Assembly (NCBI GenBank): GCA_033816765.1
Contig: CM066299.1
Location: 682,001 to 746,000, forward strand
Length of the DNA: 64,000 bases
Origin: Nothopassalora personata
Taxonomy: Eukaryota > Ascomycota > Dothideomycetes > Mycosphaerellales > Mycosphaerellaceae
Reading direction: 5' to 3'
Positions within the stretch are counted from its first letter, which is position 1. Each line of letters starts with the position of its first letter. Shown in pieces: positions 402 to 61,213 of the stretch. Position numbers and translations under genes: made by a program. The notes below the pieces were generated by a model that was given only the letters and a program-made list of their open reading frames with translations, was not told the DNA's origin and did not search any database.

Positions 402-1201
402 CTATATGCGGCGGTACTGTTTGCCGCCATTGCTGTACACGCGAGCGGATCGGAAGCGGAAATGGAGGTCGCAAACTTGCGCTTTGGGAACGATGGTCGG
501 CAGTTGATCGATCAATTTGCTTAGGTTGCCGACGAAGCTGTCGTGTCTATCGATATCAAGAGTAGGAGGATCTGGAGGGTGGAACGATGCATGATCCCAC
601 ATCCCAAGGTAGATGATGATCAAAGGTGCAGGGGCTTGGAATGGCATGTACGTTGGCATTGTGTTCGATAATGCCTTCACCACGTCCCTCCGTGGTGCGC
701 AGTACTCTACCTCATCGATGCAGAACTCAACATACTCGCCTCTTCCCGGATCAGGCATGCCGGGCCAGTTGGCGGTGTTGAGGTCGAGCCGCGGCGGGCG
801 TAGCTTAATAAATTCCTTCAAGCCGACGTCGAAGAGCTTCGCGCATGCTTTGACAGGCTTGCGGCCACAGCGCTCGATATGCTTCAGCTGGTTTTGCGTT
901 GCGTTGATGTATGTCTTGCCGGCTACACTGTTCCCTAGCCACGTGTCTCCCGCCGCTTTACGCACGACCTTCTGCAGCAGCTCGGGCGGCAAGTCGACAA
1001 GGCTCTGCCGTGGTGCTACGGACTCGAGAAGCTCTCTTGGCCTTGCTACACCTCCTTCCTGTAGTAGAAATCGGCACTGGTGTATTCTGGCTTGGAGATT
1101 CCAGATGATGTCTCGTGAGTCGACCCTAGCACTGTCATTGCCTGCTCGGAGGGTTGGATCGAGCTCTGATCCACGAGGCGGAGAAGATTGTTTACGCGTT
1201 C
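402..1201 (-). CDS. hypothetical protein with F-box-like start, 3' exon
   Basis: The minus-strand frame is open from a splice-acceptor-like CAG at 1204-1202 to the stop at 402, about 266 residues. No ATG lies in this frame upstream of residue 100, so the true start must be in an upstream exon that I could not place; GTAAGT-type donor sequence exists near 1395. Residues around 970-1010 nt read S-L-V-D-L-P-P-E-L-L-Q-K, which resembles the first helix of F-box or related fungal LPxEL domains; the rest (for example the WLGNS and PDPGRGEYVEF stretches) matches nothing I know. A 218-codon plus-strand frame over the same bases is Ser/Arg-rich and looks like a shadow. An F-box role would mean SCF ubiquitin-ligase substrate binding, but this rests only on the short motif. 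Confidence 0.5.
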
Positions 1202-1204
1202 CTG

Positions 1205-1917
1205 AATCTCAGGCTATCGTCTTCGAGAAAGGTCCTCGCAGGATGATCCTAGTTGCAGGACGAGTGTAACACCTATGATCAATGTCAGCTTCGTCCCCAG
1301 GCAAGCAGTAGTACTACAACACCATGCACCGAGCTCGAGGTATACGCAAGAGAGTACTATGTGCGTAGACTGTCTATCAGCCGACTTACGAGATTGCTTC
1401 GGCAGTCGACCTCGCAGCGCTTAGCAGCCTCTGGGCCCGCCACTGTCCTTCGCTCTTGACAGGAGCAGAACTTCGGCCGCTTCTGTGCTGCAATGACACA
1501 GTTATTCTGCGCGTTTATCGTGGCAAGCACGAGATCTGTTGATGGCGATTGTAGACGGTGTCCGAACGAAAAGCAGATATAAGCGCGTGTTCATGTGCGG
1601 ATCCGAGACATGTATGCATCGCCATTCACCAGGTTGTGACGCGACGCGACATTGGACCCTGGAGCACTTTCTCGATACTCGCACAATAGATGTTGTTCAT
1701 TCACGCGCACCGTCAGACACGGGATACATAAAGTCGTCTTTCTTGAACCCGTCTTCTCCCAATACACACCCTCGGCCAACCGCTTCAGACTACCGCAGAC
1801 TCGACATCCACCACCGCAAATAGCAGAAGGACATCAGACAGCCCTCCGGTAAGCACGTGAAGCCATGAAGTATGGATATATCGAAGCTGACAGACAACAG
1901 CCATTGCATTCGACACC
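1205..1917. other. intergenic, 5' exon(s) of the left gene probably here
   Basis: No convincing complete reading frame. The region upstream of the minus-strand gene probably carries its missing first exon; a GTAAGT donor-like site lies near 1395 on the minus strand. The last ~100 bases are the 5' leader of the MYND gene, ending in the good start context CACCATGTC. Confidence 0.4.
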
Positions 1918-2640
1918 ATGTCTTCCTCACAGACCATCCCCATCCTCGCCATCGGCAAGGATGGCAAGTCCTTCCACCGCGGCACCATCCCGCTCGCCGA
2001 CTTCAACGACACCGCGAAGTGGGCCTTGTCACCCGTCTCCAAGAAGCTCGGCCTCCCTCTCAAAGCCCACGTCACCACCAGCGACCTCTCCGCCGCCTCC
2101 GAGTCGGACGAGCACACCTACATCAACTCTTTCTACCTGGACTACGACTCCTACAGCAGCGACTTCGGAAAGCTCATGCGCGCGCCCTTCGTCGGCAATG
2201 AAGTCGTCCTTGCCCGCTGCGATGGCCTTCCACTCGATGAGATGGTCGTAAACGCCATGCAGGGCCACATCACCGGTCTTACCTGCGAGGGAAAGAAGTG
2301 CGGTAGCGCCAATGCCTGCACCTGTCCCAAAGACAACGAGGGGGTCAAGCAGGCCATCGCTGACACTTGCAGCAAGAAGGTCTTCTCGGAGTTTCTCACG
2401 CGCGCTCAGGGCATGTTGGCCATGATGCCAGGCGCTGCTACTGTCAAGAACCCTTTCGACGGTTCAGAGGACAAGACTGGAGCTGTGCCGTTCTGTGCTG
2501 GATGCGGAATGGCGAAGAAGGAGGATGGGACTGAGCTGATGATTTGCTCCAAGTGCAAGAAGGCATACTACTGCGGCGAGAAGTGCCAGCAGGGGGAGTG
2601 GCCGGAGCATAAGAAGGAGTGTAAGAAGGCGAAGGCTTAG
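1918..2640 (+). CDS. MYND-type zinc finger protein
   Basis: Single-exon gene of 240 aa. The C-terminus (residues 193-235) is a full MYND zinc finger: C193-x2-C196, C210-x2-C213, C219-x3-C223, H231-x3-C235, which is the family spacing for binding two zinc ions. MYND domains are protein-interaction modules; here there is no SET or other catalytic domain, so the role is open. The N-terminal 190 residues, including a small Cys-rich stretch at 125-140 (C-E-G-K-K-C then C-T-C), are not a family I recognise. The ATG at 1918 has a strong fungal context (CACCATGTC), and an upstream ATG at 1865 is in another frame. Codon use is strongly C/G-ending, as in an expressed fungal gene. Confidence 0.85.
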   Translation: MSSSQTIPILAIGKDGKSFHRGTIPLADFNDTAKWALSPVSKKLGLPLKAHVTTSDLSAASESDEHTYINSFYLDYDSYSSDFGKLMRAPFVGNEVVLARCDGLPLDEMVVNAMQGHITGLTCEGKKCGSANACTCPKDNEGVKQAIADTCSKKVFSEFLTRAQGMLAMMPGAATVKNPFDGSEDKTGAVPFCAGCGMAKKEDGTELMICSKCKKAYYCGEKCQQGEWPEHKKECKKAKA

Positions 2641-3122
2641 GAAGGGGGTTTGTTGAGGATAGCGCGCTGAGCAGCTCGATCGTGACATGGAGTAGAGACA
2701 GGAGCTTGGAGAAAAGGTAGCTTGGACAATATGGCTCTAACGCGCGTTCTGTTACACACCTTCACGCCCGAGAACATGAGCTGAGCTGTAGAGCATTATG
2801 GATCGACCAATTGCCTAGTCTTAGATGATCCGATAGCGAGTGTGCGCTCGTATTGTACGCGCATATTGGCATCTAGCGACACGATCCTCTAACAACAGAC
2901 TCGAGTATGCATTGATCAGCAGCCTAAACTAGGTACATTGTCTCCCAACACGCACGTTTAACACACGCCGAGGGCATCTGCGCTGGCAGCGATACATACT
3001 CTCGTACTTTCAGGCAGATCTGTCCATGAAATGCCACATTGAAGCGCATACGTCAAGATGTTGCTTATCCATGGTCGAAGTACGCGAGGCGAACGAAAGA
3101 CACGAGGTACCCCGAATCCATA
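2641..3122. other. intergenic, no gene seen
   Basis: 3' flank of the MYND gene. No reading frame with coding character, no RNA gene recognised. Confidence 0.5.
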
Positions 3123-30179: not shown

Positions 30180-30831
30180 AGTTAAGGATAAGTTAATAAG
30201 GGACGGAAGGGAGATTAAGGACTTAGGCGACTTAGTTAAAGTTACAATTAATCTTAACGATAAACTCTACGAGAGAGCTCTAGAGCGACGATACGACTCT
30301 AAGGTATCTAGAAAAGCCGGATATATACTAGGTTACGACAAGCGAAATAATAGAGGCTTTAGCAACGTTTACGACAATAATAAGCCTAAGAACTATACGC
30401 TATACTATAGACTCTAACTAATAGAGCTCGACGTTACCTAAAAGGGTCGTAAGATTAAGAATATAGGCAAATTTAGGCCTAAGAGTTTAAAAGGAAGCAT
30501 TACCTACTATACCTATAGTAAAGAAGGCTATATAGCGAGGGACTACTATAGTAAAAAAAATAGTACGCCGTAAGTAGTTTAACATAATACAACTAGGAAC
30601 TAGTAAACTCGAGAGTAGTATTAGATTACCGGATAATACCGACTATACTCGAGGAGTAGCGGAGAGAATTAGTAACGGAAGCAATATACCTCTCCTAGAC
30701 CCCTTATAAGGACGAGGACAATACTATAGTTATAAGAACTACCTACAATAGTTTAATAACATCTAACGGACCGGACTACTAAAACGAGCCTACGATAAGG
30801 AAAAAGAAATATAAGCGTAGCGCAATAAAAT
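30180..30831 (+). mobile_element. Gypsy-2, 5' piece (gag), RIP-mutated
   Basis: Reads a Ty3/Gypsy gag C-terminal half with stops. The CCHC zinc knuckle (30505-30546) is preserved in spacing, but all three Cys codons are now TAC/TAT and the His codon is TAT, which is what G-to-A and C-to-T changes produce. Interrupted at 30831 by Gypsy-1; continues at 37626. Confidence 0.75.
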
Positions 30832-31028
30832 TGTAAGGGGCAGCCCAGTGGCTAACCCCTACATGTGGCCTTGCATGTGACATGCGGTCGCGACCGGCTG
30901 CCAAGCCGCACGTGACACGCATGAGTACACCTTGCGACGCGCGATGCGTCTTGAACAAAAGGCAAGAATTAGTTCATCTACGACTGGCAGGTCGTGGGCG
31001 TGCTATACATTGCGACATCCCCTTAACA
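30832..31028 (+). repeat. Gypsy-1 5' LTR
   Basis: 197 bp, TGTAAGGGG..CCCCTTAACA. Contains AAGAATTAG at 30964-30972, complementary to the primer site just outside the LTR. Confidence 0.95.
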
Positions 31029-31040: not shown

Positions 31041-31065
31041 CTCTTCGTTGCAATCCATACACGCC

Positions 31066-32232
31066 ATGGAGTCCGAACGCGACGACAGCAGCGCTACGCC
31101 TGCGGCTCCCCTGAGCCCTAGGGCCCAGCAACAAGCGAGGCGTGCAGCCTTAGTCGCAAGGAGGGATGCCCTTCGGGCAGAGGTTGAGGAGAAGGAGATA
31201 CAGAGGGAGATTGAACAGTTGGAGATCTTGCGGGACGCAAGCGTGCCGCCGGCGGACCCTCAGGGCGAATCCGGCGGAGAACTATCCCCTACTCCCCCTC
31301 CCCCTCCTCCATCTGTAGTAACTGACGATGATATCGCAGCTCGAGGCGCGGTCGCATCGCATGCGACACGTTTGCGTCTCAAAGAACCTACGCCTTTTAG
31401 AGGGGACTCGATCAAGAAAGCACGGGTATTCCTAAGGGAGCTCTCTCTTGTCTTTGCCCTCTCAGGCGGCACGTATGCGACGAACGAGTCAAAGGTCCTG
31501 TATGGGGTTATGTACCTAAGCGGAGAGGCAAGTGAGCGATGGCACGCCAACCATAGCGTCCTTGACCTTAAAGGGTATACATACCAGGACTTTGAGGAGT
31601 TCTGTCGAGACGCATGCGGTGATCCTGTGAACCGCGTGCTCAACGTGATGTTGGAGTATGAGGCGGTGAAACAGAAGGACAACCAGACAGTGCGTCAGTT
31701 TGCGACTGAGCTGGATGTCATGGAGGATCAGTTGGGGGACTATACGGAGGCGCAACGCGTGCGACATATGCTCGCTAAGCTTGCGCCTGGCCTGCGGTCC
31801 GCAATCGTCAAGTTTCATGACATCCCAACAACCAGAGAGGAACTGGTGATCCTGGCTTCGCGCATTGAAAGCACGGAGCGTGGCAGCGGAGGGCACGACC
31901 GCGGGCAGCATGGTCGCCGCAGGCGAGAGACTGAGGGCGACCAAGGGCGAAGCGATCGTGGCTCGAAGCAGCAGAAGCATAGTCAGGCGTCGCGCGACCC
32001 GGGTGCGAGTTACCAGCGGGACGCCGGCGGATCATCTGTGACCTTTGATAGGACCAAAGCGGAGTGCTATGGATGCCATAAGAAGGGTCACATTAAGACG
32101 GATTGCCCGAATAGGCACCTGTGGAAGGACCGTGGCGCGCAAGCGGTTCGCAGGGTAGACGCTGCGAAGGCTCTGACTGAGAAGGGCAGCGACCAGGGAA
32201 AAGGCAGAGGACCAGAAGTGGGTCGCTCCTGA
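31066..32232 (+). CDS. gag: Gypsy-1 Gag
   Basis: 388 aa from ATG 31066 in context CGCCATGGAG. A coiled-coil N-terminus (E-V-E-E-K-E-I-Q-R-E-I-E-Q-L-E), the retrotransposon gag core around residues 110-260 (F-R-G-D-S-I-K-K-A-R-V-F-L-R-E-L) and one zinc knuckle C334-x2-C337-x4-H342-x4-C347. Gag forms the virus-like particle and packages element RNA. It ends inside the first of three 99-bp repeats, whose sequence holds the heptamer GGGAAAA in the right phase (32196-32202) for a -1 shift into the pol frame. No RIP damage, unlike the counterpart in the copy at 39.7 kb. Confidence 0.9.
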   Translation: MESERDDSSATPAAPLSPRAQQQARRAALVARRDALRAEVEEKEIQREIEQLEILRDASVPPADPQGESGGELSPTPPPPPPSVVTDDDIAARGAVASHATRLRLKEPTPFRGDSIKKARVFLRELSLVFALSGGTYATNESKVLYGVMYLSGEASERWHANHSVLDLKGYTYQDFEEFCRDACGDPVNRVLNVMLEYEAVKQKDNQTVRQFATELDVMEDQLGDYTEAQRVRHMLAKLAPGLRSAIVKFHDIPTTREELVILASRIESTERGSGGHDRGQHGRRRRETEGDQGRSDRGSKQQKHSQASRDPGASYQRDAGGSSVTFDRTKAECYGCHKKGHIKTDCPNRHLWKDRGAQAVRRVDAAKALTEKGSDQGKGRGPEVGRS

Positions 32233-32484
32233 GTCCGAGTTTTCCTGAAGTCGACCCCTTGAGGCGAGTGGATGTGTGTCCATCGCAGCGACCAGGGAAA
32301 AGGCAGAGGACCAGAAGTGGGTCGCTCCTGAGTCCGAGTTTTCCTGAAGTCGACCCCTTGAGGCGAGTGGATGTGTGTCCATCGCAGTGACCAGGGAAAA
32401 GGCAGAGGACCATAAGTGGGTCGCTCCTGAGTCCGAGTTTTCCTGAAGTCGACCCCTTGAGGCGAGTGGATGCGTGTCCAGCGC
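32188..32484 (+). repeat. three 99-bp tandem repeats across the gag/pol junction
   Basis: Unit starts AGCGACCAGGGAAAAGG at 32188, 32287 and (as AGTGACC) 32386. Being 99 bp it keeps both frames. The first copy holds the gag stop; the third carries a C-to-T change making TGA (32388-32390) in the pol frame. The RIP-mutated Gypsy-1 copy has only two units. Confidence 0.9.
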
Positions 32485-35400
32485 GTCACTTGCGAGGCGC
32501 AGTCGAGACTCGTGAGGGCTTTCGCGAGGCCACGTTTCTCCTGGATGACTGTGCGGATCTCAGCCTAGTGTCGTATGAGTATGTACTCCGACATCAAATG
32601 CAACCCATTGATGGGGCAAGGCTGCCGAAGTTAGAGTCGTATGCGCATGACCCAGGGTATTGCTACGGCGCCTTTGCGGTTCGGCTGCGACTCGCTGATG
32701 ACGCGGGAGTAGAGCGCGTGAGTGACGCCATCTGCTACGCGGTGCCTATGGGTAGGCCATCAGTGATTTTGGGTAGACCCTGGCGGCATCGTAATCGGAT
32801 AGTGAAGGCCGATAAGGATGACCAGTGGTACTACGGTGCAGAGACGCCTGCGGTTCAGCAGCGTGACGCACGCGAGTTCCTTGAGGATCTCGAGAGCTCA
32901 AAGCAGGTTTATGCGATGAGTGTTCGGGCTATTGCTGCAGCAGTACCTGAAGGAGAGGGCCCCTCGTGGCCTGAAGAATTTGCAGACTTCCGAGATGTAT
33001 ACGCACCTAATAAGCAGGCGAAGCGCAAGATGCCCGACGGGGTTGAGCATGCGATTAATCTCGTTGAAGGAAAGAAACCCCCTTTCAAGCCTCTGTACCA
33101 CCAGTCCTTGACTGAGTTGGAGGCCTTGAAGGAGTACCTTGCGCAAGCAATGGAGAAGGGGTGGATTAGGCGGTCCGCAAGCGAGGCGGGTGCGCCTATC
33201 CTGTTCGTGCCAAAGAAGAATGGCACTCTTAGGCTCTGTGTTGATTACAGAGGCCTGAATGAGATTACAGTGAAGAACCGATACCCCCTGCCCCTAATCA
33301 GCGAGACGCTAGATAGGCTATCAGGTTCCAGGTTCTTCACTACAATCGATTTGAAGGACGCCTACCATCGTATCCCTATTAAGCGAGGCGATGAGTGGAA
33401 GACTGCGTTTCGCACGCGATACGGACACTACGAGTACCTGGTGATGCCGTTCGGGTTAACCAACGCACCGGCAACCTTTCAAGGGTATATCAACAAGGCG
33501 CTGACCGGCTTAGTTGATGACATTTGCGTGGTCTACCTAGATGATATCCTCATCTACAGCGAGACGCGTGAGGCACACGTGCGAGCCGTACGCGCGGTGC
33601 TGGAGAGGCTACGAAAGTTTGCCCTGTTCGCAAACCCTAAGAAGTGTCACTTCTTCCAGGAGAGTGCAGAGTTCCTTGGGTTTGTCGTGAGCGCCGCAGG
33701 CGTGTCGATGGACAGGAGCAGGGTAGCCGCTATCGAGGAAAGGCCTACACCTACGACCTTTCATGAGGTCCAGTCCTTCCTTGGGTTTTGCAACTTCTAC
33801 CGGCGTTTTATAGAAGGATACTCAAGGGTCTGCAAGCCCCTAACGGACCTGCTAAAGGGATCCAAGGACGGCAAGAAGCACGGCCCTCTCACGTGGACCT
33901 TAAGCGAAGAGCAGGCGTTTCGACAGCTTAAGGCCGGATTCTTAGGTGCACCAATACTTAGGCACTTCGATCCTGCGCTGCGCACGCGAGTCGAGACGGA
34001 TGCCTCAGGTTTCGCGATCGCAGGTATCATATCCCAATTGTTTGGTGCTGAGTGGCATCCCATCGCGTTCTATTCACGCAAGATGATACCAGCTGAGTGC
34101 AACTACGAGACGCACGATCAGGAGCTACTTGCAGTGGTTGAGGCTTTCAAGCATTGGAGGCCATACTTGGAGGGCGCTACGCATGCGGTGCGAGTGCTAG
34201 TCGACCACGCTAACCTACAGGGCTTCATGACAGTAAAGCAGCTGAATGGGCGGCAAGCTCGATGGGCTACGTTCCTGCAGTCTTTTGATTTTGTAGTGGA
34301 GCATCGGCCGGGTAAGACTGACCCAGCCGACGCGCCTTCGAGACGCAGTGACTACGCAGCCATAACGCAACAAACTTCGAACTTGCTGCCTACCTTGCAA
34401 AGTAAGCTGTCTTTCTGGAAGGAGTCTCTGGAAGGGACAAGCGAGCCGACGGTGAAGCGCGTGCTTGCCACCTGCGAGGCGATGCAGGGCGACATAGGCG
34501 CGGCGATGGCAATGCGGAGAGGTGACCTTCCCCATCAAGACAAGCCGTCTTTACCAGCAGCAGTGTGCGCTGCAGTGATACAGGGTCAAGCTTACAGCTC
34601 GACGGGTGAGTTGATCCCACTCTTGATGAAGATCGCGCAGCAGCAAGACGACCAGTGTGTCGCATGCTTGGCGCAGGCGCCAAGCGCGAGGGACGCCAAG
34701 GGATGGCATGTGAAGGATGACCTTGTGTACTGCGGAGACGCGATCGTGGTACCCAGGGATCACGCAATCAGGTCGCATCTGATTCGCATGCACCACGACG
34801 ACGTCCTCGCGGGTCACTTTGGAAGGACCAAGACTGAAGAGCTGTTGCGACGTAATTATTGGTGGGACTCACTTAGCACGGACGTGAAACAATACGTCCA
34901 AGCCTGCAGAACCTGCCAGGGTTCGAAGGCGAGGCGCCATCGACCCTACGGCGAGCTGCAACCGCTTCCTAGACCGGAGCGACCGTGGCAGGAAATCACC
35001 ATGGATTTCATTACGGACCTACCTCCAAGCACGCGAGCCGGTTGCGTGTATGATGCGATCCTAGTGATAGTCGATCGCTACTCAAAAATGAGCTTGTACA
35101 TCCCGACGACGAAGACTCGCACAGCCGTGGAGCTTGCGAGGCTCCTGCGAGACGAAGTCGTGCGATACTATGGTGTCCCGTCAGGCATAGTGAGCGACCG
35201 AGGTCCGGTCTTCACTAGTCAGTTTTGGAGTGACTTCTGCTTCGAGGCGCGTGTGAAGCGCAAGCTATCCACGGCCTTTCACCCTCAGACTGACGGCCAA
35301 ACTGAGAGGGCAAACCAAACCCTCGAACAATACCTTCGTTGTTACTGCAGTGACAATCAAACTGAGTGGGCTGAGTGGCTTGCAGTTGCTGAATTCGCAG

Positions 35401-36053
35401 CTAATAACAGCATCCACCCAACACTGCGGATGAGTCCGTTCGAAATAGCGCACGATTGGCGACCTGAGATTGCCCCTGCACCAACTGGATCTCGAGACGA
35501 GACCCAGGGGGGGGAAGTACCAGCAGCGGTAACAGCTGCGAGTCGCATGCGAAAACTACGCGCTACACTCGAGGAGCGATGGAAGGCTGCAGCAGAAAGC
35601 CAGGCTCGCTACTACAACAAGACCCACCAAGCCAAGACCTACCGCGTAGGTGACTTAGTCCTGTTGTCAACGAAGAACCTCAAGTTGGCAGTGCCAAAGA
35701 AGAAGATGGGTCCGAAGTTCATCGGCCCATACCGCATTACGGACGCTGTCGGTTCGCAGGCGTACCGCCTAGCGCTACCAGCCGACTCAAGGCTCCACAA
35801 CGTCTTCCATGTCTCTCTCCTCGAGCCGTATATCGGTAGCGATGAGGATGGACCCGTACCCCCTCTAGCTAATGAGGACGGAGAGTATGAGGTAGAGGCA
35901 GTGCTGGATAGGCGTAAGCGCAAGGGCAAGCTGCAGTATCTAGTCCAGTGGAAGGACTGGCCAGAGGAGTACAACAGCTGGGAACCGGCGGAGGGCCTCG
36001 CGAATGCGGATCGCATGGTAGCCGGCTATGAGGCGTCAAGGAGAAGCAAATGA
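32457..36053 (+). CDS. pol: Gypsy-1 Pol (PR-RT-RNase H-IN-chromodomain)
   Basis: 1198 codons, numbered from the TTG at 32457 (frame open from 32391; no initiating ATG, expected to be made by -1 frameshift from gag). Protease: the active-site position reads L-L-D-D-C-A-D-L-S, not the usual D-S/T-G, but the later I-L-G-R-P-W is normal. RT: V-D-Y-R-G-L-N and Y360-L-D-D. RNase H: E-T-D515-A-S-G. Integrase: zinc-binding H780/H787 and C817/C820, catalytic D850, D914 and E950 (35 residues apart). C-terminal chromodomain from about residue 1144 (L-Q-Y-L-V-Q-W-K-D-W-P-E-E-Y-N-S-W-E-P), which targets integration to modified histones. All domains uninterrupted. Confidence 0.9.
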   Translation: MRRVDACPARHLRGAVETREGFREATFLLDDCADLSLVSYEYVLRHQMQPIDGARLPKLESYAHDPGYCYGAFAVRLRLADDAGVERVSDAICYAVPMGRPSVILGRPWRHRNRIVKADKDDQWYYGAETPAVQQRDAREFLEDLESSKQVYAMSVRAIAAAVPEGEGPSWPEEFADFRDVYAPNKQAKRKMPDGVEHAINLVEGKKPPFKPLYHQSLTELEALKEYLAQAMEKGWIRRSASEAGAPILFVPKKNGTLRLCVDYRGLNEITVKNRYPLPLISETLDRLSGSRFFTTIDLKDAYHRIPIKRGDEWKTAFRTRYGHYEYLVMPFGLTNAPATFQGYINKALTGLVDDICVVYLDDILIYSETREAHVRAVRAVLERLRKFALFANPKKCHFFQESAEFLGFVVSAAGVSMDRSRVAAIEERPTPTTFHEVQSFLGFCNFYRRFIEGYSRVCKPLTDLLKGSKDGKKHGPLTWTLSEEQAFRQLKAGFLGAPILRHFDPALRTRVETDASGFAIAGIISQLFGAEWHPIAFYSRKMIPAECNYETHDQELLAVVEAFKHWRPYLEGATHAVRVLVDHANLQGFMTVKQLNGRQARWATFLQSFDFVVEHRPGKTDPADAPSRRSDYAAITQQTSNLLPTLQSKLSFWKESLEGTSEPTVKRVLATCEAMQGDIGAAMAMRRGDLPHQDKPSLPAAVCAAVIQGQAYSSTGELIPLLMKIAQQQDDQCVACLAQAPSARDAKGWHVKDDLVYCGDAIVVPRDHAIRSHLIRMHHDDVLAGHFGRTKTEELLRRNYWWDSLSTDVKQYVQACRTCQGSKARRHRPYGELQPLPRPERPWQEITMDFITDLPPSTRAGCVYDAILVIVDRYSKMSLYIPTTKTRTAVELARLLRDEVVRYYGVPSGIVSDRGPVFTSQFWSDFCFEARVKRKLSTAFHPQTDGQTERANQTLEQYLRCYCSDNQTEWAEWLAVAEFAANNSIHPTLRMSPFEIAHDWRPEIAPAPTGSRDETQGGEVPAAVTAASRMRKLRATLEERWKAAAESQARYYNKTHQAKTYRVGDLVLLSTKNLKLAVPKKKMGPKFIGPYRITDAVGSQAYRLALPADSRLHNVFHVSLLEPYIGSDEDGPVPPLANEDGEYEVEAVLDRRKRKGKLQYLVQWKDWPEEYNSWEPAEGLANADRMVAGYEASRRSK

Positions 36054-36187
36054 GACTGGCACTGGAGCACAAACAAAACTTTTCTCAACTATAAACAAAA
36101 CAAAAGCTGAAGAGTGGCGCGCCCACCAGGGGCCACGCAGAGTGGTAGCAGGCGAGGAGCCCGCGAGCAGCGTGTGAGGCGAGCGCC

Positions 36188-37125
36188 TCAGTTGTCGTCA
36201 CGCAGTGACTCAGGCAAGAATGCCTGGTCGGCGGCGGTGGTGTCGATGTTCTGCGCCTGCAGGAACTGGGACCACGGTTAGCAGGGTACACGCAGGCGAG
36301 GAACATGCGACTCACGGCGCGGCCGAGTTCGAACAGCCCATTGAGGGCGCGGTTCTGCTCCTGCTGGAGCGCGAGGGCTTCGGCGGCGGGGGCGTCGGCA
36401 GTGGTGGCGGCGGCGGCGGAGGCACGCATGCGGGTCTCCCCGGCACGCTTGTGCTTGTAGGCATTGAACTGCCTGATGGCCTATAGGAAGGGTCAGCCGA
36501 AGCACAGGGGACGCACTAGAGCCCTCCCCCGCGAGTAGCAGTCGACTCGCACGAGCGAAGCAGCGACTTACCTCCTTGATGTCGTTGCCCAGCTGGGCAC
36601 ACAGGCGGATCTGCTCCACCAGCTCCTGCTGCTGGAGGTCTGTGGGCGCCTGGCCCATCATGGCCGTGAGGAAGTCGCGCTGGGACCGCGCGGCGCGCAG
36701 GCGGCTCACCAGCGAGGCGATGGCGTGGCTGGTGTTGGGCACGCAGCTGTGTTTGCTGCGCCTGCAGCGGCCACACTTCTTCAGGAGCTCGCCGGTGGTG
36801 ACACTATCACAGTCATCGGCCTCGTCTAGCAAGTGGTTAGCATGCGAATCGCAGGCGACGCGCGTGGAGACTTACCCCTGACGAAGTACGGGAGGCACCG
36901 CATGCACATGTTGATTCTCTGCGAGAGCTTGGTGGCTGGCGAGGGCGTTGGTGGCTGCGAGGGTGATGCTGGTCGCTTGCGACCACCAGGCGTTCTGGGT
37001 GCGTCGCGCACCAGAGCCGCCTGGCGGCGCTCGTCTTCTGCGGCGCTGGTGGTGCTGTCGCTGCTGGTGCTGCTGGAGGAGGCGGAGCGGCCAGAGAATG
37101 GCGGCGAGGAGGGCACGGCCGACAT
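36188..37125 (-). CDS. antisense four-exon gene carried by Gypsy-1, Cys-cluster protein
   Basis: Exons on the minus strand: 37125-36876, 36825-36572, 36480-36316, 36256-36188. Introns of 50, 91 and 59 nt have GTAAGT, GTAAGT and GTGAGT donors, CTAAC, CTGAC and CTAAC branch sites, and TAG, TAG and CAG acceptors; the spliced frame is 246 codons (245 aa). The N-terminus is Ser/Pro-rich and disordered. Residues 74-111 form C74-x2-C77-x11-C89-x11-C101-x2-C104-x6-C111, a likely zinc-binding cluster broadly like fungal C6 modules. A helical part follows (L-V-S-R-L-R-A-A-R-S-Q-R-D-F-L) and an Ala-rich tail. It lies between pol and the 3' LTR, opposite to gag-pol. The same gene, RIP-damaged, is in the other copy (45403-46337). 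Function unknown; possibly DNA or chromatin binding. Confidence 0.8.
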
Positions 37126-37243
37126 GATGATGATGATGCTGGCGAGGCGCTTGCGATGATGGTGCGGTGCGGGTGCGTGGTGGTGGTGTGGCGAAGGTGA
37201 TGAGCTGGGGAGCGTGCTGAGAAAGGGCTGGGTTGGGCTGGAG

Positions 37244-37250
37244 TTTTATG
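37244..37250 (-). promoter_or_regulatory. TATA-like box of the antisense gene
   Basis: CATAAAA on the minus strand, 119 bases upstream of the ATG at 37125 and inside the element, before the LTR. The antisense gene may therefore have its own promoter. Confidence 0.35.
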
Positions 37251-37423
37251 CCCCTAACCAGCTGCGTCGGCATGGCAACCAAGCCTCACTCACCTACACC
37301 TACATGACGACACGCACGCAACCCGCATGTGGGCCGCATAGCAACTATGGTTCTGGAAGTACATAGGAGCCTCTACGTAGCAACTAGCGAGCTGAGGACA
37401 GCTCGCACGGGAGGGGAGGCAAT

Positions 37424-37620
37424 TGTAAGGGGCAGCCCAGTGGCTAACCCCTACATGTGGCCTTGCATGTGACATGCGGTCGCGACCGGCTGCCAAGCCG
37501 CACGTGACACGCATGAGTACACCTTGCGACGCGCGATGCGTCTTGAACAAAAGGCAAGAATTAGTTCATCTACGACTGGCAGGTCGTGGGCGTGCTATAC
37601 ATTGCGACATCCCCTTAACA
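37424..37620 (+). repeat. Gypsy-1 3' LTR
   Basis: 197 bp, identical by eye to the 5' LTR; preceded by the purine tract GGGAGGGGAGG and followed by the AAAAT target duplication. Confidence 0.95.
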
Positions 37621-37625
37621 AAAAT

Positions 37626-39523
37626 TCTCGAAGAACTAGAATACAATATATTACGTACCTAGGACGATAGCGTCCTAGGGAGACTTCGACAAATTAAAGA
37701 CTATATTAAGAATGCCCTTAATAAGCTCGACGAGCTTAAAGCGATCTACGAGGAAAGTAGCGAAAGAAGCCTAGGAAATACGCGCGACTAGTTAAGTACT
37801 TAATAGTAGAATATTACTAGCTAAATCGACACTTACGAGAAACAGAACCGGACGTTTAGAATAATAGTACGTAGAGTCGACTATAAGATTGAATCTAAAT
37901 CTCAAAATAGTTATAGAAGCCTTTATTAGCGATTCTATTACTAAGACTCGTATTAGGTTTACTACTCCGCTAAATTAGGAGTAGGGTATTAGCCTTAGTA
38001 ACCGCGAGGAACCCTAGGAGCAATATATCGACAAAACGCTACGCTCTAGGAAGTAGATATAGATAAATCCTATTTCGATAACGATAGAAGTAATAAGGAA
38101 AACTAGGACCTAGGATAGAACGGATTATAGTTACCGGGACTATAGGAATAAGGTTAAGAAACTACCGGGCTAGATACTATTAAAGAGGATTAGGATCCGG
38201 ACGAATTAAGCGAAGAAGATTCCTCCGAAGGAGAAGAGAGCGATACTAACGACAATAACGAATAACTAACCTTTACGATCGATACACCTAAGAAGCTATA
38301 CGATATAATTGTTTATCTATAGAGAAGGTATAAAGAATTCCTACTAAAAATATCGGGACGACGTGTCACCGTACCGGCGCCCATCATTCACTTGGACCCG
38401 CGCGCACGTGCGTGGATCCCGCGCGCGCCGCTGACTAAGCCGGCCCGAGGGCTTGGCGCGTGTATATCTACCTCGCGCCCTCCGCGCCTCTCTTAGATAG
38501 ACCGTCTATTCGACTTGTACCTTATCCGACCACGTGCTTGCACCTGCTTGTGACACGACGAGTACTATATCTAAACGAGTTCGATAAAACTCTTAATATA
38601 TTACGAGTAATAGCTTAGATATACCTAATTATAAGTATTATAGAGAATCTCGCGATAGTAGTTACCGAACGACTACCTTTAGGAAGTAGAATAATAGGTA
38701 CTAGCTACCTTGTACCGTTAGGAATATTTATATTAAACGAATTACGTAATATAGTATAACACGTACGCGCACTCTACTTAGAAACGTAAAAGATCTAGGA
38801 ACGTAATCGAGAAAATGCATGAAGACTAAGCGCTTCGCTATAGGTTTAAGCCGAAGCCTTACGGTACGAAATGTAATATTCTACCTAATAGTTGAAAAAA
38901 GGATTGACTCCTTAGGAATAAGCGACTAAAAGGAGTTATATAACATAAGAAAGGCTTAAGTATTACTAATAGTAGAAGCAGTCTTCCGAATATAGGCAAT
39001 CATTAATAGTTATAGGACTAAGGTTATAATTAATTCCGGAGCGAGCGGGAATTTTACCTCCGAAACATTTATAAGGACTAAAGGGATCGTAACCCGAAAG
39101 AAAGACGAAGGGTATAAATTAATCGTAGTAGACGGATTATCCTTACCTAGTATAGAGCGAGAGACGATACCGCTACTACTAGCAATCTAATAGTACTATA
39201 AGGAGATTATCTTAGATATTACTAATATAGCTAGTTATAACATCGTATTAGGTATACCTTAGTTAAGAAAGCATAATCTAATAGTCGACTAGAAGAGAGG
39301 AGTACTTATATTTAGGGAATACGATTGCGTTATCGATATTTAGCCTACGTAGTAGTAGCGTTTATTAGTAGATAAGGTAAAGAAACAGCTAAACGAGATA
39401 TAGCTTACGCTAACTAGAAGGATAGAAGAACTACCTTCGACCGGGATAGACACTAGCGTAGGAGCGCCGGGTTACGAAGTTACTAGTAGTAATAGAAGTA
39501 ACGTACTATCGAAGGATACTAAC
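37626..39523 (+). mobile_element. Gypsy-2, second piece (gag end, protease), RIP-mutated
   Basis: Continues the old element after Gypsy-1. Around 39030 it reads the protease active-site region as N-S-G-A-S-G-N-F (the catalytic Asp codon GAT is now AAT), later V-L-G-I-P. Full of TAG/TAA stops. Broken by a solo LTR at 38364-38555 and by the second Gypsy-1 copy at 39524. Confidence 0.7.
38364..38555 (+). repeat. solo LTR, 192 bp, family S
   Basis: TGTCACCGTACC..GCTTGTGACA with target duplication CGACG on both sides (38359-38363, 38556-38560). GC-rich and without RIP-type depletion, so younger than the Gypsy-2 sequence around it. A second copy lies inverted at 44364-44555. Confidence 0.85.
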
Positions 39524-44363: not shown

Positions 44364-44555
44364 TGTCACAAGCAGGTGCAAGCACGTGGTCGGATAAGGT
44401 ACAAGTCGAATAGACGGTCTATCTAAGAGAGGCGCGGAGGGCGCGAGGTAGATATACACGCGCCAAGCCCTCGGGCCGGCTTAGTCAGCGGCGCGCGCGG
44501 GATCCACGCACGTGCGCGCGGGTCCAAGTGAATGATGGGCGCCGGTACGGTAACA
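44364..44555 (-). repeat. solo LTR, 192 bp, family S, inverted copy
   Basis: Reverse complement of the LTR at 38364-38555 with few differences; target duplication AGTAA (44359-44363, 44556-44560). Confidence 0.85.
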
Positions 44556-45402
44556 AGTAACAATTAAACTAAGTAGGCTAAGTAGCTTACAGTTACTAAA
44601 TTCATAGCTAACAATAGTATCCACCTAACACTACGGATAAGTCCGTTCGAGATAGCGTACGGTTAGCGACCTAAGATTGCCCCTACACTAACTGGATCTC
44701 GAGACGAGACCTAGGGGGGGGAAGTACTAGTAGCGGTAATAGCTACGAGTCGCATGCGAAAACTACGCGCTACACTCGAGGAGCGATGGAAGGCTGTAGT
44801 AGAAAGCTAGGCTCGCTACTATAACAAGACCTACTAAGCTAAGACCTACCGCGTAGGTAACTTAGTCCTATTATTAACGAAGAACCTTAAGTTAGTAGTG
44901 CTAAAGAAGAAGATAGGTCCGAAGTTTATCGGCCTATACCGTATTACGGACGCTATCGGTTCGTAGGCGTACCGCCTAGCGCTACTAGCCGACTTAAGGC
45001 TCTATAACGTCTTCTATGTCTCTCTCCTCGAGCCGTATATCGGTAGCAATAAGGATGGACCCGTACCCCCTCTAGCTAATGAGGACGGAGAGTATAAGGT
45101 AGAGGTAGTACTAGATAGGCGTAAGCGCAAGGGTAAGCTACAGTATCTAGTCTAGTAGAAGGACTAGCTAGAGGAGTATAATAGCTAGGAACCGGCGGAG
45201 AGCCTCGCGAATGCGGATCGTATAGTAGCCGACTATAAGGCGTTAAGGAGAAGTAAATGAGACTAGCATAGGAGCACTAGAGCATAAACAAAACTTTTCT
45301 TAACTATAAATAGAACAAAAGCTAAAGAGTAGCGCGCCTACTAGGGGCTACGTAGAGTAGTAGTAGGCGAGGAGCCCGCGAGTAGCGTGTAAGGCGAGCG
45401 CC

Positions 45403-46337
45403 TCAGTTGTCGTCGCGTAGTAACTTAGGTAGGAATGCCTAGTCGGCGGCGGTAGTGTCGATGTTCTACGCCTATAGGAACTAGGACTACGGTTAGTAGG
45501 GTACACGCATACGAGGAACATGCGACTTACGGCGCGGCCGAGTTCGAATAGCCCATTAAGGGCGCGGTTCTGCTCCTACTAGAGCGCGAGGGCTACGGCG
45601 GCGGGGGCGGCGGTAGTAGTAGCGGCGGCGGAGGTACGTATACGGGTTTCCCCGGCACGCTTATGCTTATAGGCGTTAAACTGCCTAATAGCCTATAGAA
45701 ATGGTTAGCCGAAGTATAGGAGACGTACTAGAGCCTCCCCCCGCGAGTAGTAGTCGACTCGTAGGAGCGAAGTAGCGACTTACCTCCGTAATGTCGTTAC
45801 CTAGCTAGGCACATAGGCGGATCTACTCTACTAGCTCCTACTACTAGAGGTCTATAGGCGCCTAGCCTATTATTACCGTAAGGAAGTCGCGCTAGGAGCG
45901 CGCGGCGCGTAGGCGGCTTACTAGCGAGGCGATAGCGTAGCTAGTGTTAGGTACGCACTTATGTCTATTGCGCCTATAGCGGCCGCACTTCCTTAGGAGC
46001 TCGCCGGTAGTAACACTATTACAGTCATCGGCTTCGTCTAGTAAGTGGTTAGTATACGAATCGTAGGCGGCGCGCGTAGAGACTTACCCTTAACGAAGTA
46101 TAGGAGGTACCGTATATACATATTAATCCTCTACGAGAGCTTAGTAGCGGGCGAGGGCGTTAGTAGCTACGAGGGAGATGCTAGTCGCTTACGACCACTA
46201 GGCGTTCTAGGTGCGTCGCGCACTAGAGCCGCCTAGCGGCGCTCGTCTTCTAAGGCGCTAGTAGTGCTGTCGCTACTAATACTGCTAGAGGAGGCGGAGC
46301 GGCTAGAGAACGGAGGCGAGGAGGGGACGTTAGACAT
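45403..46337 (-). pseudogene. RIP-mutated copy of the antisense gene
   Basis: Collinear with 36188-37125: the ATG (46337), the stop (45403) and the GTAAGT donors (seen as ACTTAC on the plus strand near 45780 and 46084) are still recognisable, while many codons are changed. Shows that the antisense gene was already part of the element before the two copies separated. Confidence 0.75.
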
Positions 46338-46638
46338 GATAATAATGATGCTAGCGAGGCGCTTACGGTACGGGTGCGGTACGGGTACGTAGTAGTAGTG
46401 TAACGAAGGTAGTACGCTAGGGAACGTGCTAGGAGAATAGGGCTAGGTTAGGCTAGAGTTTTATGCCCCTAACTAGCTACGTCGGTATAGTAACTAAGCC
46501 TTACTTACCTACACCTACATAACGACACGTACGTAACCCGCATGTAGGCCGCATAGCAACTATAGTTCTAGAAGTACGTAAGAACCTCTACGTAGTAACT
46601 AGCGAGCTAAGGACAGCTCGTACGGGAGGGGAGGCAAT

Positions 46639-57712: not shown

Positions 57713-57898
57713 TGTCACGGGGTGGCCTTGACCTTGGACCCTTCGCCGGCTTAACCGCGGACCTTCCGGATCGGGTTAGCGCGGCTTGGCACGAGATCGA
57801 CCTTGCTTCTCTCTTCTCTCTCGTTCTTAGACTCTTCGTAGATTGTATTATTCACGACTTGACTCCTACACTCTCCGGATCTCATATCGCCCGTGTCA
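57713..57898 (+). repeat. 5' LTR of the gag-only element
   Basis: 186 bp, TGTCACGGGG..CCCGTGTCA. Contains GTAGATTGTA at 57838-57847. Confidence 0.95.
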
Positions 57899-57909
57899 TT
57901 ACAATCTAC
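57899..57909 (+). promoter_or_regulatory. primer-binding site of the gag-only element, self-priming type
   Basis: One base after the LTR, TACAATCTAC (57900-57909) is the perfect 10-nt complement of GTAGATTGTA at 57838-57847 in the LTR. Same geometry as Gypsy-1 (61 versus 65 nt from the complementary site to the LTR end). Confidence 0.6.
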
Positions 57910-58035
57910 CGCTCATAAGCTGCACGCGTCCGCAAGGATCCGTACAGCGCGCTCAAACTAACAGCGCATTGTCAGCTCGAGCAACGCGCTCTAGCACCAG
58001 ACCCGAGTGGTAGCGATTGTCAACATCCCACCATC

Positions 58036-60081
58036 ATGGAAGGCGAACAAGCAGTTCCAAACCCTCCTCCTCCGCAGCGAGGCCGACGACAGTCTCGAGG
58101 CGAGGACGAGGAGCGACCCGACTTACCAAGAGACCGATCACCACGAGAGCGATCCTCTATGCCACCCACCACGCGACTTCGGCGCCAACTCGACAGTGCT
58201 GACGACGCAGTTACACCGAAAGTAACAGGCAACTTCAATCTCGACGAGCCGACGCCAGGGCGCCCGCTCAAGCAGAAGGGAACTGTCGTCGCCGACACGC
58301 AAGAGACGATTGGCCGACAGTCAGAATCAGCATCGGCAGCACCGGCTCCGAAGCCAGCGAAGAAGTACCCTCTGACAGAGGAGCAGCGCGAAGAGTATGC
58401 GCAGAGGAACTCCACGGACCGCCTCACGTACAACAAGGACGAGGGAACCGTGGCTAGACAGACAGAGCACTGCGACCTCGGCTGGGCAGTGCCACGCGAC
58501 ATTACCACCTACAAGAATGCCGAAGGTCACAGACTGCTACAGGCCCGGTACAAGGTCAACAACTTCAAGTTCGGCAACGCGAAGGACCTCAAGCTGGTCG
58601 TCAACCAGGGCAATGAGGAACACCCGGATGCCGGTGCCAAACGCTTCCTAGACGTACTCGACAACGTCAACCTGATTATCGCCAGAAGCGAGGAGGCCGT
58701 TGAGGAACACGATGCGCTCATCGAGCAGCACGAAGATACTATCGCCCAACAGGACAAGACTATCACCCAGCAAGAGAAGGTGATCACGCGCTTGGAAAAG
58801 AAGGAAAAGACTTCAACAAAGATGATAGAAGAAGCCATCGACAAGTTCGCCGCGTACAAGACTGAGCTGGCGGCCCTTCGACAGGACAAGCAAGACCTAG
58901 AGCAGCGTCTCAAGGCCATGGAGGCAAAGGAAACAGAAGCTGACGACAGTGAGAAGGAGGATGCAACACTTGCACGACTAGGCAAGTACCTCCAGGATAC
59001 CGACGGCGACGATTCCGACGTCGAGTCGGAAGCCAATCTCAGACGTCGGTACACCACCCACACCACGAAGGTCCCGCTGCGCAAGGCGGCCGGATCAGCT
59101 GGTGGTACACCAATGCCGAAGCCGCGGCCACGAGGCGTCTCCCTAGCAGGTTCCGGTATCAGCGCTATACTCGGTCGGAAGCGCAGCTCACATGCTCAAG
59201 AACTCATCGACGACGATGATGATGCTCGGCCGACCTGTTCAGGCTCCGAAGCACGCGCCAGCGGCATCAAGGCGCCGGATGCATTCTCCGGCGAGGCAGG
59301 CAAGGAACAGAAGCCTTACCTCGAGTGGAAGCAGAAGATGAAGTACTACCTACGTATGGGTTGCAAGGGCTTCAGCGACGAAGACTTGAAAGCTACTGTC
59401 ATCAACTGCACCACTGGATTCGCCTACAGTGTCCTCGAACCTATCGAGTCCACACTGGCTACGGCGGATCACGTCTTCGAGGTGCTCGACGAGGCCTGCG
59501 GCGATAAGCATACGCGCACCACGAAGCGTGCAGAGTATCAGTACCTCAAGCAGGGTGACGGCGAGGTTTTCAGCAAGTTCTGGGCCAAGTTCGTGTCATA
59601 TCTGCCATACATCTCACACGACAAGGATGACCCAGATGATTTGCCCGAGCAGATGCGGGCAAAGCTCAGCAAGGCTTACCGCGACTGCATCCGTGGCGAG
59701 CGTTTCAAGGATATCATGACTATGAAGGACAAGCTCCACATGATCGAGGCTGACTTCCTTCACGATAAGGCAGGCGGCAGTAGCGGCGGAGGTCGTCGCC
59801 ATGGCGGAACTGGTGGCGACGGCAACGACAAGTCACCTCTCCAGAAAGCCAATGATGCACTCAAGAACGGCTATGATTGGGACAAGGCCAAGGATGGCGG
59901 TCTCTCATCGTTCCGGCCCATTACCCAGAAGGAGTTCGACGACCGCACTAAGTGCTTTGCTTGCAAGAAGGAGGGATGCCGCAAGACCCTTCCAACATGC
60001 CCGTATGCACCATACAAGAAGGCCTCGCGTCGTCCGAACAACAGCACTCTCGACGTGCCTGGTGTTGAGGAAAAAGTCTAA
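58036..60081 (+). CDS. Gag-like protein of the gag-only element
   Basis: 681 aa from ATG 58036. Residues 1-150 are Pro/Arg/Glu-rich and disordered; about 215-300 form a long coiled coil (D-T-I-A-Q-Q-D-K-T-I-T-Q-Q-E-K; L-R-Q-D-K-Q-D-L-E-Q-R-L); 425-590 is helical with a retrotransposon-gag look (P-Y-L-E-W-K-Q-K-M-K-Y-Y). Near the end is a Cys motif C640-x2-C643-x4-C648-x6-C655, which differs from the CCHC knuckle by having Cys for His. Unusually long for a gag. The frame is fully open with C/G-ending codons, suggesting recent selection or very recent arrival. Likely assembles a particle using RT and integrase supplied in trans. Confidence 0.75.
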   Translation: MEGEQAVPNPPPPQRGRRQSRGEDEERPDLPRDRSPRERSSMPPTTRLRRQLDSADDAVTPKVTGNFNLDEPTPGRPLKQKGTVVADTQETIGRQSESASAAPAPKPAKKYPLTEEQREEYAQRNSTDRLTYNKDEGTVARQTEHCDLGWAVPRDITTYKNAEGHRLLQARYKVNNFKFGNAKDLKLVVNQGNEEHPDAGAKRFLDVLDNVNLIIARSEEAVEEHDALIEQHEDTIAQQDKTITQQEKVITRLEKKEKTSTKMIEEAIDKFAAYKTELAALRQDKQDLEQRLKAMEAKETEADDSEKEDATLARLGKYLQDTDGDDSDVESEANLRRRYTTHTTKVPLRKAAGSAGGTPMPKPRPRGVSLAGSGISAILGRKRSSHAQELIDDDDDARPTCSGSEARASGIKAPDAFSGEAGKEQKPYLEWKQKMKYYLRMGCKGFSDEDLKATVINCTTGFAYSVLEPIESTLATADHVFEVLDEACGDKHTRTTKRAEYQYLKQGDGEVFSKFWAKFVSYLPYISHDKDDPDDLPEQMRAKLSKAYRDCIRGERFKDIMTMKDKLHMIEADFLHDKAGGSSGGGRRHGGTGGDGNDKSPLQKANDALKNGYDWDKAKDGGLSSFRPITQKEFDDRTKCFACKKEGCRKTLPTCPYAPYKKASRRPNNSTLDVPGVEEKV

Positions 60082-60778
60082 CCTCTGAGCGTACGCACAA
60101 CACTCAGAGGGCTGACATTCCCCAACGTGCAACGTCCGGTAAGGACCCTCCCGTAGATTCCAACCTCTACGAGCATCTCGCCTATCCTCGCCTGCAGGCA
60201 ACAGCATCAGTGTTTGTACCGTCGGCTCGTCCAGCTGCCGCTTCAACAGTGCAGCTGGGCGGACGACGGCAACCTATCGCCCTAACTGCTGACCTGCCAA
60301 CGGTTTGTTCTCTCTCGGTTTCACCGCACATGAGCCTCCCACCCATATCGAAGCATGTCGTGCTTTGCGGCATGGTCGGAGGGCAGCTCATACGCTGTAT
60401 GCTCGACACAGGTTGTACCTCTCTCTTTGTCCATGAGAGGTTTGCGAAACTAAATCTACAGCGCACAAGGAGGTTCGCTACACATACCGATGGGTCGGCG
60501 GCGCCCACACCTCAGAGGTCTACAAAGTCAACATCGGCGGACCCGATGACTTGATCGCAGACTTTCACCACAACAACCCTGATGCTGATGGCCCGCCGCC
60601 CGGATGGAAGCCGCCAGCGCTATGGATACCGAACGAGAAAGTTGGGTCAACCGCATTACCCGCGCACATGGCAGATGCTGGACAACCACCTGTCTCCGCA
60701 CCGACACCGACCACAGAAACGCCGGTCCTCCGCCGTTTAGCGCGCACGCGAGGAGATACAGCTGTCTCGCCGAAGTGA
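60082..60778 (+). pseudogene. retropepsin-like protease, two frames
   Basis: In the -1 frame relative to gag, open from 60072, comes V-V-L-C-G-M-V-G-G-Q-L-I and the active-site motif L-D-T-G-C-T-S (60402-60422). The frame ends at 60554, but the protein-like sequence continues from about 60470 in another frame (W-V-G-G-A-H-T-S-E-V-Y-K-V-N-I-G-G) to a stop at 60778. Protease was probably once one domain and is now frameshifted. Confidence 0.6.
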
Positions 60779-61027
60779 TGAACTGCTCGGACACGGCCTT
60801 CAATGCGTGTGTAAGCACCGACTGTAGCCTCTCGCTGTTACAGCACGGCCTTACTGAAGCACGCACACTGAAGCACCGGTCCGCGGTATCTACACGCACC
60901 GCTCGAGCCGACCATGCTACACATCCCTTACACGCCAGACGAGGCCGCTGTCGCATTGGTTACATACTGTTTGATTTTCTTTTTACGCACGTCGCAGGCG
61001 CTCGTGGCCATTTTGGAGGGGGGGTAC
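60779..61027. other. 3' non-coding part of the gag-only element
   Basis: No reading frame of note; ends in the purine tract before the LTR. Confidence 0.5.
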
Positions 61028-61213
61028 TGTCACGGGGTGGCCTTGACCTTGGACCCTTCGCCGGCTTAACCGCGGACCTTCCGGATCGGGTTAGCGCGGC
61101 TTGGCACGAGATCGACCTTGCTTCTCTCTTCTCTCTCGTTCTTAGACTCTTCGTAGATTGTATTATTCACGACTTGACTCCTACACTCTCCGGATCTCAT
61201 ATCGCCCGTGTCA
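61028..61213 (+). repeat. 3' LTR of the gag-only element
   Basis: 186 bp, identical by eye to the 5' LTR. Confidence 0.95.

Follow-up and report, generated by a model that had tools for sequence, protein, structure and literature searches.

A gene on the minus strand of a chromovirus in the fungus Nothopassalora personata lies between pol and the 3' long terminal repeat (LTR), consists of four exons and belongs to the chromovirus family. We lean, by a modest degree, towards the reading that this is a real spliced protein-coding gene of the element, and that its product is an accessory regulator that binds DNA or chromatin in the nucleus. The evidence comes from the anatomy of the gene, its copies across the genome, a diverged sister subfamily, the pattern of substitutions, and genes of similar make-up in other chromoviruses of the same genome.

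The antisense gene and its host element

The window, by which we mean the whole stretch of 64,000 nt that was analysed, contains an intact element bounded by the target-site duplication AAAAT (30824-30828 on the 5' side and 37621-37625 on the 3' side). Its two LTRs of 200 bp, both in plus orientation (5' LTR, 30829-31028; 3' LTR, 37421-37620), are 100% identical. Between them the plus strand carries a gag-like ORF (31048-32232), in which a CCHC zinc knuckle scores below the cut-off, and a pol ORF (32457-36053) with Pfam matches over the cut-off for reverse transcriptase, RNase H, integrase, SH3_Tf2-1 and a chromodomain. The succession of reverse transcriptase, RNase H, integrase and chromodomain between the LTRs is that of a chromovirus.

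On the minus strand, positions 36188-37125 read as a four-exon gene with its ATG at 37125-37123 and a TGA at 36190-36188. Exon 1 (36876-37125) holds the first C-x2-C pair of the product, and exon 2 (36572-36825) holds the remaining four cysteines of the cluster and the beginning of a part presumed to be helical; exon 3 (36316-36480) and exon 4 with the stop codon (36188-36256) complete the gene model. The introns measure 50 nt (intron 1, 36826-36875, codon phase 1), 91 nt (intron 2, 36481-36571, phase 0) and 59 nt (intron 3, 36257-36315, phase 0). Their donors are GTAAGT, GTAAGT and GTGAGT, their branch-like motifs CTAAC, CTGAC and CTAAC, and their acceptors TAG, TAG and CAG, respectively. The product has 245 aa, or 248 aa if exon 4 begins 9 nt earlier, at 36265. 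A leader with the putative promoter would occupy 37126-37420 on the same strand, up to the 3' LTR, and a TATA-like CATAAAA can be read about 120 nt before the ATG. A scan of the leader for bacterial-type promoters, a model that is uninformative for a fungus, gave no match. Directly before the ATG stands a CAT repeat, which is 1-3 units longer in 24 other young copies (among L002-L027) than in the window copy.

A strict intron pattern (GTRAGT donor, CTRAY branch, YAG acceptor) was used to assess these signals. Between 36000 and 37450 it matched three times on the gene strand and not at all on the opposite strand, compared with 14 matches on both strands of the whole 64-kb window. Three or more strict introns were found in 0 of 1000 dinucleotide shuffles of 36000-37450. 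GC-rich sequence does favour long frames, and the gene could in principle consist of chance open frames and chance splice signals opposite such a region. We consider this very improbable given the shuffling result, the retention of three introns in a diverged sister subfamily, and the occurrence of six-cysteine genes in the corresponding position of other families (both described below). The anatomy given in the preliminary description, a complete minus-strand gene with ATG, three introns, in-frame joins, stop and a 245-aa product with a cysteine cluster, is established at 36188-37125.

The same description had reported a second copy of the gene damaged by repeat-induced point mutation (RIP), and this copy is present at 45274-46635 on the minus strand with 84.9% identity. 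Its substitutions are mostly C>T or G>A (170 of 205), and 149 of 169 with a known next base lie in CpA context. The splice ends, six in all, are intact, and many stops interrupt the frame.

Copies of the gene across the genome

The genome of the same organism (54.5 Mb in 40 contigs) was searched with the DNA of the gene, which was found in at least 40 places among the best 40 of 315 candidates. A search with the SH3 domain at the end of pol gave at least 27 places of the window family without a stop in the match, down to E = 8.8e-18, among the best 150 of 1542 candidates. By coordinate matching, the antisense gene accompanied 26 of these 27 listed pol ends; the 27th (L071) is cut off 61 nt past pol. 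The gene runs from ATG to stop in 25 of the 27 copies, and in L055 it has an internal deletion of 91 nt. Seven of the 27 listed pol ends sit in frames of only 195-201 aa, so that pol must be interrupted upstream in these copies. Since 26 of the 27 copies with a stop-free pol end and the sister subfamily alike carry the gene, it belongs to the chromovirus family and is no chance neighbour, as had been proposed.

For the comparisons below, 25 copies free of RIP damage were used; they include the window copy (L001) and leave out L055 as well as L057 and L058, which form a truncated inverted pair. Loci L031-L060 are mostly the same copies again, retrieved by exon. A deletion of 167 nt (36233-36399), made up of 108 coding nt and intron 3, is shared by 23 of the 25 copies and leaves the frame intact, yielding a gene of three exons and 209 aa. 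This short form is open in 22 of its 23 copies and has an early stop in L026, while the two long copies are the window copy, which is open, and L002, which is frameshifted. The frame is therefore open in 23 of 25 copies, and the four-exon long frame only in the window copy. These open frames weigh little as evidence, because the young copies are about 99% identical. All 15 RIP-damaged copies examined in the subfamily of the window (L003, L025, L028-L030, the second window copy and L075-L083) have the long form, which argues that the long form is ancestral and that the short form spread recently. The four-exon structure thus stands for the window copy; the dominant recent form, which lacks intron 3, had been missed.

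The junction of the deletion holds a 6-nt repeat, GTCGGC, and its exact ends are ambiguous. Because of this repeat, the deletion fits a slip during reverse transcription. Splicing of the sense RNA was considered as another source and rejected, as the junction has the repeat and no GT-AG register in the sequences inspected.

Many pol ends of several chromovirus families in this genome lie in long stop-free frames, and older copies of the window family are heavily damaged by RIP. The combination suggests that RIP currently acts weakly or rarely in this strain.

A sister subfamily with the same introns

A sister subfamily, 72-75% identical to the window family at the pol end, was examined at five pol ends, all damaged by RIP. 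The antisense gene was in place in L084, L085 and L087, with 66-69% identity in the matching stretches; L084 equals L087 over 1566 nt and the two were counted once, leaving two independent sister copies. A gene fragment further along locus L063 also belongs to this subfamily (88.9% identical to L085). No match to the gene was found within 2 kb in L086. In another RIP-damaged copy of the sister subfamily, L073 (388-497), only about 110 nt without the antisense gene separate pol from the LTR, and this copy may be either a form without the gene or the result of a later loss.

In L084, L085 and the L063 fragment, the donors and acceptors of the three introns all coincide in position with those of the window copy; at the third donor, both L085 and the L063 fragment read ATAAGT, a change of RIP type. 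Between 36900 and 36200 the sole difference in exon length between the subfamilies is 6 nt, and intron 2 has three gaps of 1 nt. Joined-exon patterns with up to 3 mismatches, which heavily RIP-damaged copies could escape, revealed nowhere in the genome a copy from which intron 1 or intron 2 is missing, and exact exon-junction strings occurred in 0 of 83 loci. The 91-nt deletion in L055 was inspected as a candidate intron loss and discarded, since it spans exon 1 into exon 2.

That the introns are preserved through retrotransposition, as had been argued from the window alone, agrees with these results. Their persistence fits shielding by the antisense position, and we judge the underlying argument sound: in the genomic RNA, the template of reverse transcription, the introns are present as their reverse complement, which cannot be spliced, and they would therefore be retained.

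Evidence for selection on the reading frame

Non-RIP changes alone were counted, because the old copies are dominated by changes of RIP type. C>T and G>A were left out, and the null expectation was restricted likewise to 0.184-0.193 silent; an unrestricted null, which counts all mutation types, lies at 0.245-0.292. Under the restricted null the shared changes gain in weight, and the singletons are less suitable as a neutral control. Changes were called shared when present in at least 60% of nine old copies relative to the window copy, a threshold that was not tuned. Upstream of 36965, a cut placed by eye, six of the nine old copies were used, as L075, L078 and L080 do not align there.

Eleven of 19 shared non-RIP changes were silent (P = 0.0001-0.0002), corresponding to a rate ratio near 0.17. 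Singletons in the dead copies, some of which may be alignment errors, leaned towards silent changes too (10 of 31, P = 0.046-0.062), and the contrast between shared changes and singletons gave a Fisher P of 0.07. Presumably the shared changes arose while the lineage was active and the singletons after the copies had died. The comparison with the sister subfamily covers exon 2 and a portion of exon 3; silent changes made up 20 of the 79 non-RIP changes there, against an expected 0.152-0.171 (P = 0.013-0.041). Transversions in this comparison, with codon positions 1 and 2 set against position 3 and intron 2, gave P = 0.20 for L085 and L084 and P = 0.047 for the L063 fragment. Among the 25 young copies, seven variants were not confined to the two broken copies, and four of them were silent and three replacing (P = 0.09, unrestricted null); the three variants found in at least two copies were all silent. 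One silent change, at 37120, is included among the shared changes and again among the young variants.

Retention of GT and AG in the RIP-damaged copies of the window subfamily was dismissed as proof of selection. It is expected anyway, because RIP acts on CpA, which is absent from GTRAGT and TAG.

The dN/dS check foreseen in the preliminary description gave moderate support: the shared changes show the excess of silent substitutions, whereas the singletons lean the same way and the sister comparison is weak. Taken together, the substitution patterns are a moderate indication that selection acts on the antisense protein.

These data bear on two other explanations. In the first, the antisense RNA itself is the functional product; it would pair with the genomic RNA or seed small RNAs, and so damp the element, with the reading frame secondary. 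In passages of a review, regulation by antisense RNA is named as one possible function of such regions, and any antisense transcript would be complementary to the genomic RNA. A pure RNA function has no need, however, for a deletion in the recent form that keeps the frame, for an exon length change by a multiple of three alongside conserved introns in the sister subfamily, or for an excess of silent substitutions among the shared changes, and we regard this explanation as unlikely.

In the second, a host gene was captured by transduction and is a slowly decaying passenger. Antisense capture of genomic DNA is the simplest origin of introns in an element gene, and the same passages of the review describe gene capture for other retrotransposons. 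The replacement-to-silent ratio against the sister subfamily, a naive value of 0.53-0.61 that is uncorrected for multiple hits, does not indicate strong constraint, and relatives without the gene exist (L073). Against a passenger of this kind, no host paralogue was present among the matches listed (best 150 of 1255 candidates). Any capture must also be old, because both subfamilies have the gene with the same introns. We give the passenger explanation a low probability, and prefer a coding gene that serves the element.

The protein and six-cysteine genes of other chromoviruses

The 245-aa protein begins with a region rich in Ser and Pro that includes a basic stretch, GGRKRP; six cysteines follow, and after them come segments with some amphipathic periodicity. 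Among 5000 shuffles, periodicity as strong as in the protein was seen 120 times for residues 116-142, 603 times for 144-180 and 1077 times for 195-226, and 4954 times for the whole of 114-180; the heptad signal is weak. The cysteines are arranged as C-x2-C-x11-C-x11-C-x2-C-x6-C, which departs from the spacing of the Zn2Cys6 domain (PF00172), C-x2-C-x6-C-x5-12-C-x2-C-x6-8-C. In Pfam nothing came near the cut-off, and no PF00172 row appeared at E<=1. The database search by which the preliminary description would have placed the 245-aa product returned no relative at E<=0.01 among 6653 candidates. A search of viral contigs with the window pol gave no relatives.

Genes of similar make-up, which had been overlooked, are present in other chromoviruses of the same genome. 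At 7 of 12 pol loci of other families (L063-L066, L069, L070 and L072; the loci were picked by eye from the pol-end matches, and L073, a RIP-damaged relative of the window family, was not counted among the 12), an intronless antisense six-cysteine gene occupies the same place. As far as sampled, it occurs throughout one pol group of the genome, whose pol ends are 37-42% identical to that of the window. In the DNA examined of L061/L074, L062, L067 and L068, neither a six-cysteine antisense motif nor antisense introns of the strict pattern were found; other signals or genes farther away could escape this search.

The L066 protein has 175 database relatives, a few of them named 'Zn(2)-C6 fungal-type', and a search with an 11-sequence profile retrieved 161 proteins. 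No relatives were found in viral contigs with the L066 protein. Across 40 aligned proteins of the family the six cysteines are invariant, with the spacing x2, x6, x8, x2, x6 in L066 and most aligned members, and the family has a predicted helix of 81 residues and a C-terminal LSPxTW-like motif. Its best Foldseek rows are Zn2Cys6 domains, although these matches are weak. In a sequence search of the PDB, the family profile met the LAC9 zinc cluster at E = 0.15, ranked below mitofusin 1 (0.023) and Gfh1 (0.099).

The intronless genes resemble the window gene in place, orientation and approximate size, and in having six cysteines followed by a helical part. They differ from it in lacking introns, of which the window gene has three, and in their cysteine spacing, and the sequences have no demonstrable homology: a comparison of the window protein with the family aligned only 16 columns at a probability of 2.5%, and BLASTP gave E = 0.24.

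A six-cysteine cluster with helices would also suit RNA binding. The protein could then act in the cytoplasmic particle or the preintegration complex, for example as a nucleic-acid chaperone or an aid to nuclear import, instead of regulating transcription, and nuclear import of the preintegration complex is among the candidate roles named in passages of the review. The structural matches of the analogous intronless family are to DNA-binding domains, which points away from such a role, if weakly, as homology of that family to the window protein is not demonstrable. We think a particle protein rather improbable and retain a nuclear regulator as the preferred reading.

A wider proposal, which we advance tentatively and rate at a little under an even chance, is that fungal chromoviruses possess, besides gag and pol, a third gene that is conserved, lies on the antisense strand between pol and the 3' LTR and codes for a zinc-cluster-like nuclear regulator of the element. 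It would exist in at least two lineages, one intronless with many relatives, and one, a counterpart of HBZ in human T-cell leukaemia virus type 1 (HTLV-1), with introns that survive only by lying antisense. Since the genes of the two lineages are too diverged to be related by sequence, such a gene would either have been gained twice or be very old.

Several further features of the other families were recorded. L063 and L072, with 98% identity at the pol end, represent one chromovirus family, and in both the six-cysteine frame (L063, 550-1188; L072, 499-1137; minus strand) is broken by a TAG at the same codon and is otherwise continuous. The common TAG may be an inherited stop, a case of recoding or part of a short intron. 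Shortly before the antisense start in L064, L066, L069, L070 and L072, and partly in L065, there is a stretch like CCGTAACACCATCCCC...TTAGCCTAGCT, which probably comprises the polypurine tract together with the border of the 3' LTR; the antisense promoter may accordingly be located within the LTR. In L061, an intact long pol is followed downstream by a frame of 591 aa (1082-2854, plus strand) that resembles a DNA-transposon transposase, as judged by eye.

Known antisense genes and a possible function

HBZ is a small bZIP regulator coded near the 3' LTR of an animal retrovirus. We use it as a functional model and claim no relationship: like the window gene it is antisense, spliced and codes for a small regulator, and unlike it, it is a bZIP protein of an animal retrovirus. 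In the literature excerpts consulted, HTLV-1 HBZ is a spliced antisense gene and a precedent for this layout, which is therefore viable.

For fungi, an antisense gene of a chromodomain element has been in print since 2011. According to excerpts from citing papers, brtn is an additional antisense gene of Boty-like retrotransposons in Botrytis cinerea (Zhao et al. 2011, Virology 417:248; via PMC8365987, PMC7264820, PMC4227169 and PMC5987419). The excerpted review places brtn between pol and the 3' LTR and calls the function of such ORFs unknown, a Boty-like element with a CHROMO domain is described (PMC4227169), and a 63% match to brtn is reported from Monilinia. As far as these excerpts go, brtn resembles the window gene in its antisense orientation, its position between pol and the 3' LTR and its chromodomain element. 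No Botrytis name occurred among the named rows listed for the 175 relatives of L066 and the best 120 of the 161 profile-search proteins. Novelty in a fungal chromovirus, as claimed in the preliminary description for an intron-bearing antisense gene, holds at most for the introns, because brtn lies at the same place in Boty. A literature search that was thin on subscription journals found no report of an intron-bearing antisense gene in fungal elements, nor of a Zn2Cys6-like antisense family in fungal chromoviruses.

Besides fungal Boty, the review passages name antisense ORFs in Grande, RIRE2, Retand and PvRetro13. Excerpts of a 2025 paper report antisense ORFs in all of its recently active Retand representatives, most with a predicted DNA-binding domain, and other excerpts report that the Grande antisense protein is nuclear and that gene23 has its own promoter. 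From these partial sources, the plant ORFs (Grande gene23, RIRE2 and Retand TRP28) share with the window gene the antisense position between pol and the 3' LTR, but code for different proteins, and introns are not described in the passages available.

We hypothesize that host polymerase II transcribes the antisense gene from its own promoter between the 3' LTR and the ATG. The transcript would be spliced and translated into a small protein that is rich in Ser and Pro at its N-terminus and has a compact, zinc-binding-like set of six cysteines and helical segments. This protein would enter the nucleus, bind DNA or chromatin as a dimer, and act on the element in the way of HBZ and similar accessory regulators, controlling either transcription from the LTR or the element's resistance to silencing by the host. 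We infer transcription, splicing, zinc binding, nuclear location and DNA binding, and with them every functional step.

If the hypothesis is true, many fungal LTR retrotransposons carry an antisense-coded regulator beyond gag and pol. Databases may then list such regulators as scattered 'hypothetical' or 'Zn(2)-C6' proteins, and counts of host transcription factors would be inflated. Through such genes one could study how elements respond to silencing and RIP, and they would serve as a natural test of how introns can last in an element with an RNA stage. This neglected question becomes testable where one genome offers both a gene whose three introns are conserved between subfamilies and a parallel intronless gene.

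Other repeats in the window

Two further pairs of repeats were observed. A repeat of 195 bp occurs at 38361-38555 and 44364-44558 in opposite orientations with 99% identity, the second copy lying inside the RIP-damaged Gypsy copy; it could be a short non-autonomous element or a solo LTR. Direct repeats of 186 bp (57713-57898 and 61028-61213), which are 100% identical, bracket 3.1 kb with a frame of 681 aa (58036-60081) that has no Pfam match, and 57713-61213 is possibly a young non-autonomous LTR element.
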